A program made the position numbers and the translations under genes. This document shows positions 22,825-28,427 of a stretch of DNA of 64,000 nt, in pieces. The notes beneath the pieces were generated by a model, which searched no databases, had not been told where the DNA came from, and saw nothing but the letters and a program-made list of their open reading frames with translations. How positions within the stretch are numbered: the first letter of the stretch is position 1; each line of letters opens with the position of its first letter. The DNA comes from Gemmatimonadota bacterium (lineage in GTDB: Bacteria; Gemmatimonadota; Gemmatimonadetes; Gemmatimonadales; Gemmatimonadaceae): positions 50,215 through 114,214 of the forward strand of contig JAJPIS010000019.1 in assembly GCA_021324635.1 (NCBI GenBank), read 5' to 3'.

Positions 22825-22929
22825 CGCCCGTAGCGCGCCGCGGTCGCATCGCGGCGCGCACGAGCGTCGCCGCGCCGGATGTTCGGACGGGACGCCCTCG
22901 CCCTTCAATTTTTCAGGAGGTCGTCCCCG

Positions 22930-24363
22930 ATGCAGTCGCGCGCTGCCATGTTGGTGCCGGCGCTCTGTGCCTCGGCCACGCTCGTCGCGCTCCCCCGATC
23001 CAGTGCAGCCCAGGCGGCGCCCAGCGAGCAACCCGGCCAATCTCCGCCCGGCATCATCCCGGGCGTGAAGATGGGCGGCAGCCCCAACATCCGGCTCCTG
23101 GGCCACATCCCACTCGGCGGGTACTTCCGCGTGATGGACGACGAGCTCGAGCAGGATCCGAATCGGCCGTACGCCTACGTCTCCCAGGCGCGGGACCGCC
23201 CCGGCTTCACGATCGTGGATCTGCACGACCTCAACAACATCCACGTCCTGTACAACTGGCGCATCGAGAATCCCGAGCTCCACAAGGGCTTCGGCGGGAT
23301 GGATGGGAAGTACTTCAAGTCGCACGGGCGCTACTACTACGTGCAGTCGCTCCAGTTCGACCCCGGCACGCCGGACGCCGACTTGGGCGCGGTCGTCGCC
23401 GACGTCACCGGGCTCCCCGACACGACGAAGGTCAGGATCGTCGCCCGCATCCGCGACGCGTCGGCCCCGGGCGGCTTCCACAATCTATTCGCCTACCGGC
23501 ACTCGGACGGACGCAACCTGCTGGTCACGACCGTCAACGCGCCGCACGCGAATATCTACGACCTCGACAAAGTGCTCGCCGGCGGTGACCCCGCGAGTTG
23601 GAAGATCGGCGAGATCCCCGTCCCCGAGAACGGGAACACCGGCCGCTTCGGCCGCTTCGGCTACCACGACTTCTACATCGGGTACGATCCCGCGACACAC
23701 CAGGACAAGTTCTACGGCGCCGGCCGGGGCGGATACTACATCTACGATATCTCCACTCCCGCCCAGCCCAAGCTGCTGACGTCGATCACCGGCGTGGCCG
23801 GTGTCGAGTTCGGGCACACGTTCACGCCGACGCCGGACGGGAAGTACGCCGTGACCGAGACCGAGTACCAGTACGCGCCGCTCCGCATCTTCGACCTTCA
23901 GCCGGGCCTTCAGGGCAAGGTGCAGGCGATCACGCGCCCGATCGGCGCCTGGACGGCCGACTGGCACGACCTCTCGCACAACCACGAGGTCCGCTGGCCG
24001 TTCGTGTTCGTGTCGGCGTACGAGGACGGCCTCCAGGTGTTCAGCATGTACGACCCGACCAACCCGACGACGGTCGGCTGGTACTACACGTGCCAGTGCG
24101 CCCACGAGCACGGCTTCGGCGGGCTTCCACAGTGGGAGGGCACGAGTGTCGAGCAGGGCGCCTTCGGGATCGACATCCGGAATCGCGATGGGCTGATCAT
24201 GATCAGCGACTCCAACACGGGGGTCTGGTTCTTCAAGATGGACGGCTTCAACGGCTGGAACGGCCACGACTGGGGGATGCCGAACATCTCCAGCGTCCAG
24301 GACTGGGACCACGGCCCGGAGGGCGCGCAGACGACGACGTCCCACGTGGCCGCCATGCCCTGA
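22930..24363 (+). CDS. Secreted LVIVD/beta-propeller-like repeat protein
   Basis: RBS AGGAGG at 22915-22920 then ATG 22930; signal peptide ...ALPRSSAAQA; repeated blade-like segments (FTIVDLHDLNNIHVL, YYIYDISTPAQPKLL, LQVFSMYDPTNP). Confidence 0.7.
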   Translation: MQSRAAMLVPALCASATLVALPRSSAAQAAPSEQPGQSPPGIIPGVKMGGSPNIRLLGHIPLGGYFRVMDDELEQDPNRPYAYVSQARDRPGFTIVDLHDLNNIHVLYNWRIENPELHKGFGGMDGKYFKSHGRYYYVQSLQFDPGTPDADLGAVVADVTGLPDTTKVRIVARIRDASAPGGFHNLFAYRHSDGRNLLVTTVNAPHANIYDLDKVLAGGDPASWKIGEIPVPENGNTGRFGRFGYHDFYIGYDPATHQDKFYGAGRGGYYIYDISTPAQPKLLTSITGVAGVEFGHTFTPTPDGKYAVTETEYQYAPLRIFDLQPGLQGKVQAITRPIGAWTADWHDLSHNHEVRWPFVFVSAYEDGLQVFSMYDPTNPTTVGWYYTCQCAHEHGFGGLPQWEGTSVEQGAFGIDIRNRDGLIMISDSNTGVWFFKMDGFNGWNGHDWGMPNISSVQDWDHGPEGAQTTTSHVAAMP

Positions 24364-24378: not shown

Positions 24379-25572
24379 TCAATATTTGGGGACGCTCGGG
24401 TCCACGTCGTCGCTCCATCGGGTGATGCCGCCGGCGAGGTTCCACACCTGACGGAACCCCGCGGCCTGGAGCGCCCGGACGGCCCGCGCGCTCCGGCCCC
24501 CGACCTTGCAATGGACGACGATCTCGCGCGCCGGGTCGAGCGTGTCGAGCCGCTCGGGCAACGTCGCGAGCGGGATGAGCCGGGCGCCCGCGATGCGCGC
24601 GATCGCGTACTCGTGCGGTTCGCGCACATCGATGAGATCGAAATCATCGCCCCGCGCTACCTTGTCCGCCACCTCGCGCGGCGTCAGCTCGCGCACGACG
24701 GGCGCCGCGACCTCCTCGGCCGCCGCACCGCGCAGGCCGCAGAACTCCTCGTAATCGATGAGCGTCGTCAGCTCGCGCGTACCGCACGCCGGACAGGACG
24801 GGTCGCGGCGGAGCGTGAGCGTGCGGAACTGCGCGCGCAGCGCGTCGACCAGCAGCAGCCGACCGATGAGCGGCTCGCCGATGCCGAGGATCAGCTTCAC
24901 GGCCTCGGTCGCCTGAATGGTTCCCACGAGCCCCGGTAACACGCCGAGCACACCCCCCTCGGCGCAGCTCGGCACGAGTCCGGGCGGCGGCGGCTCCCGG
25001 AACAGGCAGCGGTAGCACGGGCCGTCGGTGGTGGCGAACACCGACGCCTGTCCCTCGAACCGGAAGATGCTGCCGTAGACATTGGGCCGGCCGGCCAGGA
25101 CGCAGGCGTCGTTGACGAGATAGCGCGTCGGGAAATTGTCCGTCCCATCGACCACGAGGTCGAACTCGCGGATGATGTCGAGCGCGTTGGCCGACGTGAG
25201 CCGTGTCTCGAACCGCTCCAGGTCGACGTGCGGATTGATGTCCGTGAGTCGGTCGGCCGCCGAGTCGAGCTTGGGACGCCCGACGTCGGCGGTGCCGTGC
25301 AGCACCTGCCGCTGGAGATTCGTGACATCGACGACGTCGAAGTCCACGAGCCCGAGCGTCCCGACCCCGGCCGCGGCGAGGTAGAGCGCCGCCGGGGAGC
25401 CGAGCCCGCCGGCGCCGACCAGGAGCACGCGCGCCGCCTTGAGTCGCCGCTGGCCCTCGAGGCCGACGTCAGGCAGGATGAGGTGGCGGCTGTAGCGGAG
25501 GATCTCCTCCCGCGACAGCTCGGGCAGCGTGTCGGGCGCGACGTCCCGGTCGACGCTCACCGTCGTGGCCAC
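24379..25572 (-). CDS. MoeB/MoeZ/ThiF-type sulfur-carrier adenylyltransferase with C-terminal rhodanese domain
   Basis: RYSRHLILPDVGLEGQRRLKAARVLLVGAGGLGSPAALYLAAAGVG; CPACG; rhodanese HCKVGGRSARA. Confidence 0.92.
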   Translation of the reverse strand: MATTVSVDRDVAPDTLPELSREEILRYSRHLILPDVGLEGQRRLKAARVLLVGAGGLGSPAALYLAAAGVGTLGLVDFDVVDVTNLQRQVLHGTADVGRPKLDSAADRLTDINPHVDLERFETRLTSANALDIIREFDLVVDGTDNFPTRYLVNDACVLAGRPNVYGSIFRFEGQASVFATTDGPCYRCLFREPPPPGLVPSCAEGGVLGVLPGLVGTIQATEAVKLILGIGEPLIGRLLLVDALRAQFRTLTLRRDPSCPACGTRELTTLIDYEEFCGLRGAAAEEVAAPVVRELTPREVADKVARGDDFDLIDVREPHEYAIARIAGARLIPLATLPERLDTLDPAREIVVHCKVGGRSARAVRALQAAGFRQVWNLAGGITRWSDDVDPSVPKY

Positions 25573-25575
25573 CGG

Positions 25576-25851
25576 TCAGCCTCCCGCCACGGCGGGCACG
25601 ACCGTGACCTCGTCGCCGTCGCGGACCAGCGCGTCGAACCCGCCGGTGAAGCGGATGTCCTCATCGTTGAGATAGTACGTGACGAATGGGTAGGGGTTCC
25701 CGGCGTCGTCGACGAGCCGTGGCCTGAGGGCCGGGAATCGGGCCGACACCTCGCCGACGGCGGCGCCGACCGTCGCACCGTCCGCTTCGACGGTGCGCTG
25801 GCCGTCCGCCAGCTTGGCGAGCACGTTGGGAAGATGGATCGTGATGGGCAT
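25576..25851 (-). CDS. MoaD/ThiS/CysO-like sulfur carrier protein (91 aa, C-terminal GG)
   Basis: MPITIHLPNVLAKLADGQRTVEADGATVGAAVGEVSARFP...GDEVTVVPAVAGG. Confidence 0.88.
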   Translation of the reverse strand: MPITIHLPNVLAKLADGQRTVEADGATVGAAVGEVSARFPALRPRLVDDAGNPYPFVTYYLNDEDIRFTGGFDALVRDGDEVTVVPAVAGG

Positions 25852-25853
25852 GA

Positions 25854-27194
25854 TCAGATCTCCCGCACCAGCGCCTCGACCTCGCGGACACGCGGGCCGA
25901 TCGTCGGTGTATCGGTGAGGGTGGGAGCGACGGCTTCCACGGTCTTGAGTCCGTGACCGGTGATGCACAGGACCACTTCGTCCGACGGCGCCAACCGTCC
26001 GCTGCGAGCCAGCTCGAGCGCGGCCGCCACGGTCGTCCCACCCGCGGTCTCGGTGAAGATGCCGGTCGTCTCGGCCAGCACGCGGATGCCACGCACGATC
26101 GCCTCGTCGCTGACGGCGGCCGCCCATCCGCCGGTCTCGTGGATGGTTCGGGCGGCGAGCGATCCGTCGGCCGGATTGCCGATCGCGAGCGAGCGGGCAA
26201 TCGTGTTCGGCACCTCCGGGACGAGCCGGTCACCCCTGGACTGCACGAGCCGCGCGATCGGCCCGCACCCCGCGGCCTGCGCGCCGTAGAGTCGCGGCAA
26301 GGGGCCGCCCGCCGCGAGCCCGGCCCCCCGAAACTCCGCGAACCCCTTGCGCAACTTGGTCACCAGGGACCCACCCGCCATCGGCGCGACGACCGCGGTC
26401 GGGAAGCGCCATCCGAGCTGCTCCACGATCTCGAACGCCACCGTCTTCGACCCCTCGCCGTAGTAGCTGCGGAGGTTGACGTTCGCGATCCCCCAGCCGA
26501 ATCGGTCGGCGATCTGCGCGCAGAGGCGATTCACGTCGTCGTAGGTGCCGCGCACGCGGACGACGCGGGCCCCGAAGACGAGCGTGCCGATCACCTTTCC
26601 GAGCTCGAGGTCGTGCGGGATGAAGATCCACGCCGGCACGCCGGCCCGCGCCGCGTGGGCGGCGACGGCGTTGGCGAGGTTCCCGGTCGAGGCGCAGGCG
26701 AGCGTGTCCAGGCCGAACGCCCGCGCCGCGTTGATCGCCATCGCGACGACCCGGTCCTTGAACGAGAGCGAGGGATGCGAGACGCTGTCGTTCTTGACCC
26801 ACGCCCGCTCGACGCCGAGCGCGCGAGCCAACGCCGGCGCCTCGACGAGCGGCGTCCACCCGCTGTCGAGCGAGAGAGTCGGCGTTCCGGTGAACGGAAG
26901 CCACTCGCGGTAGCGCCAGAGCGAGGTCGGGCGGCTCGCGATCGCGTCCCGGTCGGGCAGGGACCGGTCCGGGTCGTACACCGGCTCGACCGGTGCGAGG
27001 CAGTTCTCGCAGATGGCGATCGGCCCCGCCTCGAACGCCGCGTCGCACTCGCGGCAGGCGAGCGCGAGCGCCCGCAGCGCGCCCGCACCCGACGCGAGTC
27101 GTGGGGTCGAGAGGGTGCGTGGTGGGTCGAGCGGGGGCGCGGGGTGGCCGCCGGATTCCGCAGCGGCCGCTGGTCGTGGGGCGATCGTCGTCAT
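25854..27194 (-). CDS. thrC: Threonine synthase family PLP enzyme with N-terminal zinc ribbon
   Basis: CRECDAAFEAGPIAICENC; HPSLSFKDRVVAMAIN; STGNLANAVAAHAARAG; APMAGGSLVTKL. Confidence 0.85.
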   Translation of the reverse strand: MTTIAPRPAAAAESGGHPAPPLDPPRTLSTPRLASGAGALRALALACRECDAAFEAGPIAICENCLAPVEPVYDPDRSLPDRDAIASRPTSLWRYREWLPFTGTPTLSLDSGWTPLVEAPALARALGVERAWVKNDSVSHPSLSFKDRVVAMAINAARAFGLDTLACASTGNLANAVAAHAARAGVPAWIFIPHDLELGKVIGTLVFGARVVRVRGTYDDVNRLCAQIADRFGWGIANVNLRSYYGEGSKTVAFEIVEQLGWRFPTAVVAPMAGGSLVTKLRKGFAEFRGAGLAAGGPLPRLYGAQAAGCGPIARLVQSRGDRLVPEVPNTIARSLAIGNPADGSLAARTIHETGGWAAAVSDEAIVRGIRVLAETTGIFTETAGGTTVAAALELARSGRLAPSDEVVLCITGHGLKTVEAVAPTLTDTPTIGPRVREVEALVREI

Positions 27195-27240: not shown

Positions 27241-27333
27241 AAAAAAACGCCCCGACGCTGAAAAGCCGCGGGGACGCGAGGGCTTTTTAGCATTTGTTTA
27301 ACGTGGCTGCAATACGCCGCAAATCCACCACGT
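27241..27333 (-). promoter_or_regulatory. SAM-II (SAM-alpha) riboswitch aptamer plus terminator/antiterminator expression platform, leader of thrC-moaD-moeB operon
   Basis: RNA: ACGUGGUGGAUUUGCGGCGUAUUGCAGCCACGUUAAACAAAUGCUAAAAAGCC. P1 ACGUGG/CCACGU; pseudoknot AUUUG/CAAAU; conserved UUGCAGCCACGUUAAACAA..GCUAAA. Followed by overlapping AAAAGCC/GGCUUUU and CG(U)CCCCG/CGGGGCG + U7. Confidence 0.85.
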
Positions 27334-27352
27334 GTGATCGGTTGTCGATGCT

Positions 27353-27434: not shown

Positions 27435-28427
27435 ATGACCGTGACAGCCGAACAGCAACTCAGGGCGGGGCCCCGCGTCGATCGCGTGATCGGCCACACG
27501 CCGGTGGTCAGGCTCGAGCGTGTCGTCGAGCCCGGGATGGCCGAGGTGTGGGTCAAGCTCGAGGGGCTCAACCCGGGCGGTTCGATCAAGGACCGGACGG
27601 CGCTCGGCATGATCCTCGATGCCGAGGCGCGGGGCGTGCTCCAGCCCGGCGGGACGATCGTCGAGCCGACGTCCGGCAACACCGGCATCGGTCTCGCCCA
27701 GGTGGCCGCGGCGCGGGGGTATCCCCTCGTCCTCTGCGTTCCGTCGTCGATGAGTGAGGAGCGGAAGCGAACGCTGCGCGCCTACGGCGCGGAGATGGTG
27801 CTGACCGATCCGGAGCGGCGGATGCTGGCGGCGATCGAGGAGGCCGAGCGAATCCGGGATGCGACGGGCGCGTGGATGCCGAACCAGTTCGCCAACCCGG
27901 CCAACCCGCGCATCCACTACGACACGACCGGCCCGGAGCTCTGGGAGGCGATGGCCCACGACGTCGACGCCTTCGTCTACGGCTCGGGGACCGGCGGGAC
28001 GATCGCCGGCGTCGGCCGGTTCCTGCGGGAGCAGAACCCTCGCGTGATCGTCGTCGCCGTCGAGCCGGCACGCTCGCCGGTGCTGTCCGGCGGTGTGCGC
28101 GGGCAGCATCAGTTCCAGGGCATGGGGCCGGGGTTCGTCCCGCCCAACTTCGATTGGTCGGTGGTGGACCGGGTCGTGCAGGTCTGGGAGGAGGACGCCT
28201 TCCCGCTCGCGCGCCGGCTCGCGCGCGACGAGGGCCTCTTCGTCGGCATGTCGAGCGGCGCGATCGTCTGGGCCGCCCTGGCCCTCGCCCGCGAGCTCGG
28301 TCCGGCGGCCCGCATCGCCACCATCGCCCCGGACAGCGGCGCCCGCTACCTGTCGACCGCGCTGTTCGCCGACGCCGTCCCGTTCCTCAGCTCACCTTCC
28401 GGGTCTTCTTGCGCAGAAAGTCCATGA
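27435..28427 (+). CDS. Cysteine synthase family PLP enzyme (CysK/CysM)
   Basis: LEGLNPGGSIKDRTALGMI; EPTSGNTGIGLAQVAAARGYPL; GSGTGGTIAGVGRFLRE. Confidence 0.9.
   Translation: MTVTAEQQLRAGPRVDRVIGHTPVVRLERVVEPGMAEVWVKLEGLNPGGSIKDRTALGMILDAEARGVLQPGGTIVEPTSGNTGIGLAQVAAARGYPLVLCVPSSMSEERKRTLRAYGAEMVLTDPERRMLAAIEEAERIRDATGAWMPNQFANPANPRIHYDTTGPELWEAMAHDVDAFVYGSGTGGTIAGVGRFLREQNPRVIVVAVEPARSPVLSGGVRGQHQFQGMGPGFVPPNFDWSVVDRVVQVWEEDAFPLARRLARDEGLFVGMSSGAIVWAALALARELGPAARIATIAPDSGARYLSTALFADAVPFLSSPSGSSCAESP

Follow-up and report, generated by a model that had tools for sequence, protein, structure and literature searches.

Organization of the locus and identification of a SAM-II aptamer

The window analysed here, a 64 kb stretch of DNA from a member of the Gemmatimonadota, carries on its minus strand an operon of three genes headed by a SAM-II riboswitch aptamer, with a divergently oriented cysteine synthase gene on the plus strand. 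The features of the locus are as follows:

27435..28427, plus strand: divergent cysteine synthase CysK, 330 aa (TIGR01139, 420 bits)
27266..27341, minus strand: SAM-II (SAM_alpha) riboswitch aptamer (Rfam RF00521, 39.7 bits, E 1.9e-5)
27301..27333, minus strand: P1 hairpin, ACGUGG 27333-27328 with CCACGU 27306-27301 (sequence reading and Rfam structure line)
27292..27324, minus strand: P2 pseudoknot, AUUUG 27324-27320 with CAAAU 27296-27292 (sequence reading)
27283..27291, minus strand: conserved aptamer 3' element GCUAAAAAG, common to aptamer and antiterminator
27255..27293, minus strand: predicted antiterminator hairpin, 27293-27283 with 27267-27255 (minimum free energy fold; covarying across loci)
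27241..27277, minus strand: predicted intrinsic terminator, GCG(U)CCCCG ... CGGGGCG then UUUUUUU (-17.4 kcal/mol, aptamer 3' end withheld)
25854..27194, minus strand: MetM-type threonine-synthase paralogue, 446 aa (TIGR00260, 254 bits; separate clade; clade-specific residues)
25576..25851, minus strand: MetO/CysO-type sulfur carrier of the ThiS fold with C-terminal AGG, 91 aa (PF02597)
24379..25572, minus strand: MoeZ, with E1-like ThiF domain and rhodanese domain, 397 aa

The aptamer is the sole Rfam match in the entire window, and both the P1 stem and the H-type pseudoknot are present. The initial annotation had named rejection by a covariance model as the outcome that would speak against it; the element instead scores above the curated RF00521 cut-off of 36 bits, and the P1, pseudoknot, GCUAAAAAG, GGCUUUU and terminator arms singled out earlier were all recovered on the minus strand where they had been placed. 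It is a SAM-II aptamer by these measures, and would be expected to bind SAM. The aptamer is kept across 61 loci, and its context is that of methionine and sulfur metabolism for all three copies of this genome, as well as in relatives, where metH, metF, metX or metY are the genes concerned.

The genes of the operon had escaped recognition in the initial annotation, and this payload of the SAM-II element proved to be the more informative part of the locus. The first gene is annotated as a threonine synthase, and its product scores above the TIGR00260 cut-off. The carrier gene adjoins it in nearly all loci, and the best solved relative of the carrier is Mycobacterium tuberculosis CysO (3dwg, E 5e-21). 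The cysteine synthase gene is not under the riboswitch, and its arrangement is kept only within the genus (L047, L048, L076, L080). Beyond moeZ, a plus-strand gene at 22879-24363 encodes a protein of 494 aa whose N-terminus resembles a signal peptide and for which Pfam gave no match at E 0.001.

A predicted terminator/antiterminator switch

Folding of the leader with ViennaRNA, the pseudoknot being left out, yielded an antiterminator in which (AU)GCU.AAAAAGCC at 27293-27283 pairs with GGCUUUU.AGC(GU) at 27267-27255; this pairing reaches further than the one first suggested. When the aptamer 3' end was kept from pairing, the remaining RNA folded into a terminator of -17.4 kcal/mol, whose arms CG(U)CCCCG (27276-27269) and CGGGGCG (27254-27248) are followed by seven U (27247-27241). 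The terminator 5' arm is trapped in the antiterminator loop, and the two structures exclude each other because they cross and share a short overlap near 27258-27255. Mutual exclusion, as originally claimed, is supported both by folding and by the comparison of 50 loci, with the nuance that the antiterminator 3' arm, which includes GGCUUUU (27267-27261, minus strand), lies mainly inside the terminator loop.

For the cross-locus comparison, the regular expression describing the aptamer was widened to include the GCCACGTAAAA form. Among 50 non-redundant Gemmatimonadota loci, the duplex between the aptamer tail and its own downstream partner had a mean energy of -8.95 kcal/mol, as against -8.27 +/- 0.21 kcal/mol when partners were exchanged between loci (11 of 20,000 permutations were as low as -8.95, with kinship ignored) and -6.66 +/- 0.25 kcal/mol when the downstream sequence was shuffled. 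Covarying partners include CTAAAACGC with GCGTTTTGG in L031, CTAAAGA with TCTTTGG in L037, and CTAAAAAGC with GCTTTTTGG in L021. A terminator-like element was found 3' of 43 of the 50 aptamers; dinucleotide shuffles gave 18 on average and 25 at most. This constitutes comparative evidence for a SAM-II antiterminator, which is open to mutational testing.

These observations support the interpretation of the leader as a riboswitch of the transcriptional terminator/antiterminator type, with termination as its predicted output. When SAM is scarce, the aptamer 3' end (AUGCUAAAAAGCC) would pair with GGCUUUUCAGCGU to form the antiterminator, which would trap the terminator 5' arm and allow the operon to be transcribed. 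When SAM is bound, the CAAAU/GCUAAAA stretch would be held by the pseudoknot, the terminator would form, and transcription would end ahead of the start codon (ATG at 27194). Counting against this reading, the leader showed no recognisable sigma-70 promoter.

SAM-II riboswitches across the Gemmatimonadota

The genome contains two more SAM-II copies above the cut-off, three in total:

G000:C1:20253-20327, plus strand: SAM-II copy L001, preceding a sulfite/nitrite reductase gene
G000:C23:13344-13418, minus strand: SAM-II copy L002, preceding a MetH-type homocysteine methyltransferase gene

SAM-II was detected in 107 of the 151 sampled Gemmatimonadota genomes and in none of 14 control genomes; weak copies at other loci of the phylum were missed at the gathering cut-off and recovered with a relaxed Rfam search. 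It had been remarked at the outset that a SAM-II element would be notable if the host were not an alphaproteobacterium. The host is indeed none, as it belongs to the Gemmatimonadota, as do the named relatives of the downstream gene; the occurrence thus lies outside the Alphaproteobacteria, but it is in no way unusual for the host phylum. Since SAM-II is phylum-wide in the Gemmatimonadota, the window copy is no stray occurrence.

Known SAM-II riboswitches (SAM_alpha, metA element, RF00521) resemble that of the window in aptamer sequence, P1, pseudoknot and methionine-gene targets, and many of them have a downstream intrinsic terminator and were interpreted as OFF switches (PMC1273637, PMC2258182). 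They were, in contrast, reported from the Alphaproteobacteria, some other proteobacterial groups and the Bacteroidetes (PMC1273637, PMC2258182, PMC4239095), whereas here the class is common in the Gemmatimonadota. Literature searches combining SAM-II with the names of this phylum listed no report covering both; SAM-II thereby emerges as a common regulator of a whole phylum that goes unmentioned in the SAM-II literature examined. A close mechanistic parallel is the Sinorhizobium meliloti metZ element, for which Rho-independent termination is likewise predicted to be SAM-induced (PMC9373788), albeit in another phylum and on a target that belongs to the acyl-homoserine route rather than the O-phosphohomoserine route.

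At four loci (L019, L020, L022 and L024) the aptamer directly abuts the Shine-Dalgarno sequence and ATG of a MetH-type gene, without a terminator. These copies are likely to be under translational control, and therefore both expression platforms would exist within one phylum. They also lend some credence to the alternative that the aptamer of the window acts mainly on translation or mRNA stability, its terminator being constitutive, as does the metA copy of S. meliloti, which controls translation and whose terminator is not predicted to be SAM-linked (PMC9373788). Here, however, the aptamer is separated from the ATG by some 90 nt that include a strong terminator, and the alternative pairing covaries; we accordingly regard this alternative as improbable.

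A distinct clade of threonine synthase paralogues

In a maximum-likelihood tree, the paralogue groups with full support in a clade separate from the other Gemmatimonadota threonine synthases; sequences from Acidobacteria and Actinobacteria also belong to this clade. L144 and L150 lie inside this clade, even though the tree labels, which were set by a score cut-off, put them outside. The clade is invariant at 26 positions at which the other threonine synthases differ from it. The canonical motifs of the latter (NPTGSFKDRG, NPxRxxGQ and the GNxGN loop) are carried by the solved Thermus thermophilus and Aquifex aeolicus enzymes and are not matched by the paralogue. In its clade: 1) the residues after the PLP lysine differ, SFKDRVV standing where SFKDRG is canonical. 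2) NLRxYYxEGSK stands in place of NPxRxxGQK, with the arginine of NPxRxxGQ replaced by tyrosine. 3) The GNxGN PLP-phosphate loop is replaced by AGGSL (AGGSLxTK).

Association with methionine synthesis

SAM-II heads the paralogue operon in 32 of the 35 paralogue-bearing Gemmatimonadota genomes; of the exceptions, one has the gene at the end of a contig, and the other two are genomes of another class. Outside the phylum, SAM-I precedes the same gene pair in all 13 Acido-/Actinobacterial loci and in Nonomuraea (14 of the 14 tested). SAM riboswitches of two classes are consequently linked to the paralogue across three phyla.

Gene content within the operons offers further clues. A homoserine kinase gene is inserted between metM and metO in L057, L066 and L095, and homoserine kinase is the source of O-phosphohomoserine. 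L058 has a gap of similar size at this position, and a PanB gene lies between SAM-II and metM in L057, L058 and L066. In two distant Gemmatimonadota lineages (L210, L211), a JAMM (Mec-like) peptidase gene is found inside the operon of metM, metO and moeZ/E1.

The paralogue also shows a complementary distribution with the acyl-homoserine route, defined here by MetX, MetY or MetA, with MetX classes assigned by score and coverage. Among the 151 genomes, 6 have both, 29 only the paralogue, 70 only the acyl route and 46 neither (Fisher p 6e-6, with kinship ignored); the corresponding numbers for the host family alone are 1, 12, 27 and 13 (p 2e-4, again ignoring kinship). The exclusion is not absolute, the overlaps being 5 with MetX/MetY and 1 with MetA. 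In 23 sister genomes SAM-II lies directly upstream of metY or metX, and of 28 genomes from other phyla that carry the paralogue, some of them incomplete, 20 lack a MetX match. Judged from gene content, the paralogue tends to replace MetX/MetY/MetA.

These data bear on the possibility that the riboswitch is real and the gene a second ordinary threonine synthase, with the carrier and MoeZ serving molybdopterin synthesis, tRNA thiolation or the like. Its TIGR00260 score, the fact that its best solved relatives are threonine synthases, and a cyanobacterial MetM homologue with threonine synthase activity (PMC12172450) are in keeping with such a role. Nevertheless, the same genome encodes a housekeeping thrB-thrC operon elsewhere, and the separate clade with its substituted active-site motifs, the recurrent SAM control and the tendency to replace MetX/MetY all argue against it, leaving this explanation with little probability. 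Less probable still is that the paralogue and carrier make cysteine, like Mycobacterium CysM and CysO, and that SAM represses them along with sulfur assimilation in general. CysO is the closest relative of the carrier, the sulfite reductase is also under SAM-II and relatives have clusters of JAMM, CysK and carrier genes, but CysK is encoded next door, the homoserine kinase in relatives' operons points to O-phosphohomoserine, the paralogue belongs to the ThrC and not the CysM family, and its presence tracks the absence of MetX/MetY in the survey of methionine genes.

Relationship to known systems and proposed function

In Streptomyces, a SAM riboswitch has been reported to control MetM, a homocysteine synthase that acts on O-phosphohomoserine, together with the sulfur carrier MetO (Hasebe et al. 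2024, Appl Environ Microbiol 90:e01247-24, as related in PMC12172450). By that description, the Streptomyces system likewise has a ThrC-like PLP enzyme gene beside a carrier gene and a SAM riboswitch, and the window operon differs from it in SAM-II instead of SAM-I, in the inclusion of moeZ and in its phylum. The distinct ThrC-like enzyme, the adjacent gene for a carrier with C-terminal GG and the upstream SAM riboswitch are all found in the window, and SAM-I is the class present in its actinobacterial relatives. The Nonomuraea locus, with SAM-I, a ThrC-like gene whose product is 49% identical to the window protein, and a carrier gene followed by GroEL, fits what we take to be the Streptomyces metM-metO arrangement. 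Given the published system, as so related, and this fit, the window operon is most likely metM-metO-moeZ.

Two other carrier-dependent systems are instructive. CysM-CysO-Mec of M. tuberculosis shares a fold-type II PLP enzyme, a thiocarboxylated carrier homologous to that of the window and the E1/rhodanese protein MoeZ; in contrast, it makes cysteine from O-phosphoserine, and its JAMM peptidase is absent from the host genome. Wolinella succinogenes uses a sulfur carrier for homocysteine, as proposed for the window operon, with a fold-type I MetY-like enzyme on acetylhomoserine, unlike the fold-type II enzyme of the window. Its protein-thiocarboxylate methionine route is alluded to in PMC5764234. 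The same paper names Acidimicrobium, Aquifex and Pyrolobus as organisms without a known homocysteine route. The idea, prompted by this open question, that the operon represents an undiscovered homocysteine pathway was dropped in view of the 2024 publication of MetM-MetO, cited in PMC12172450.

We therefore consider it highly probable, on the strength of comparative sequence evidence, that the SAM-II element is a transcriptional SAM OFF-switch of a homocysteine/methionine operon, metM-metO-moeZ. The threonine synthase paralogue, a fold-type II PLP enzyme, would make homocysteine from O-phosphohomoserine, the carrier would deliver sulfur as a C-terminal thiocarboxylate, and MoeZ would load the carrier. 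Taken singly, the class of RNA, its mechanism and the pathway have all been described before, and it is their combination and the phylum that are new within the literature examined: namely SAM-II control, occurrence in the Gemmatimonadota, the inclusion of MoeZ or JAMM among the operon genes, and an apparent interchange of the operon with metY/metX under a single class of riboswitch.

A broader proposition, to which we assign somewhat less than an even chance, is that in the Gemmatimonadota a single riboswitch class governs two interchangeable homocysteine routes, metY/metX in some genomes and metM-metO-moeZ (some with thrB or JAMM) in others. On this view, operons that contain MoeZ and JAMM would identify the thiocarboxylate on the carrier as the sulfur donor in the cell, and peptidase-less genomes such as that of the host would release homocysteine in an undescribed way. 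Many 'threonine synthase' annotations in the Gemmatimonadota, Acidobacteriota and Actinomycetota may denote homocysteine synthases, and reannotation would remove false gaps in the predicted methionine synthesis of organisms without MetX/MetY.

Release of homocysteine and other candidate enzymes in the host

No CysO-type JAMM peptidase was found in the host genome, where the sole PF14464 match is weak (25.5 bits), and a JAMM motif scan of L046-L155 returned nothing. Homocysteine might be obtained without such a peptidase by transfer of sulfide from the carrier or through another peptidase. The three Cys/Met-metabolism PLP enzymes of the host genome could also be a source of homocysteine, provided that they received an acyl- or phospho-homoserine donor; neither MetA nor MetY was found there.

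The only MetX-like protein of the host (L156, G000:C92:10709-11623, 154 bits) was examined as a source of acyl-homoserine and rejected, as it has a signal-peptide-like N-terminus and the motif GFSMGAEQ, while a true MetX is expected to carry GGSMGG. It is probably an exported alpha/beta hydrolase. Additional MetX-like copies of this kind seem to occur in relatives that possess a true MetX.
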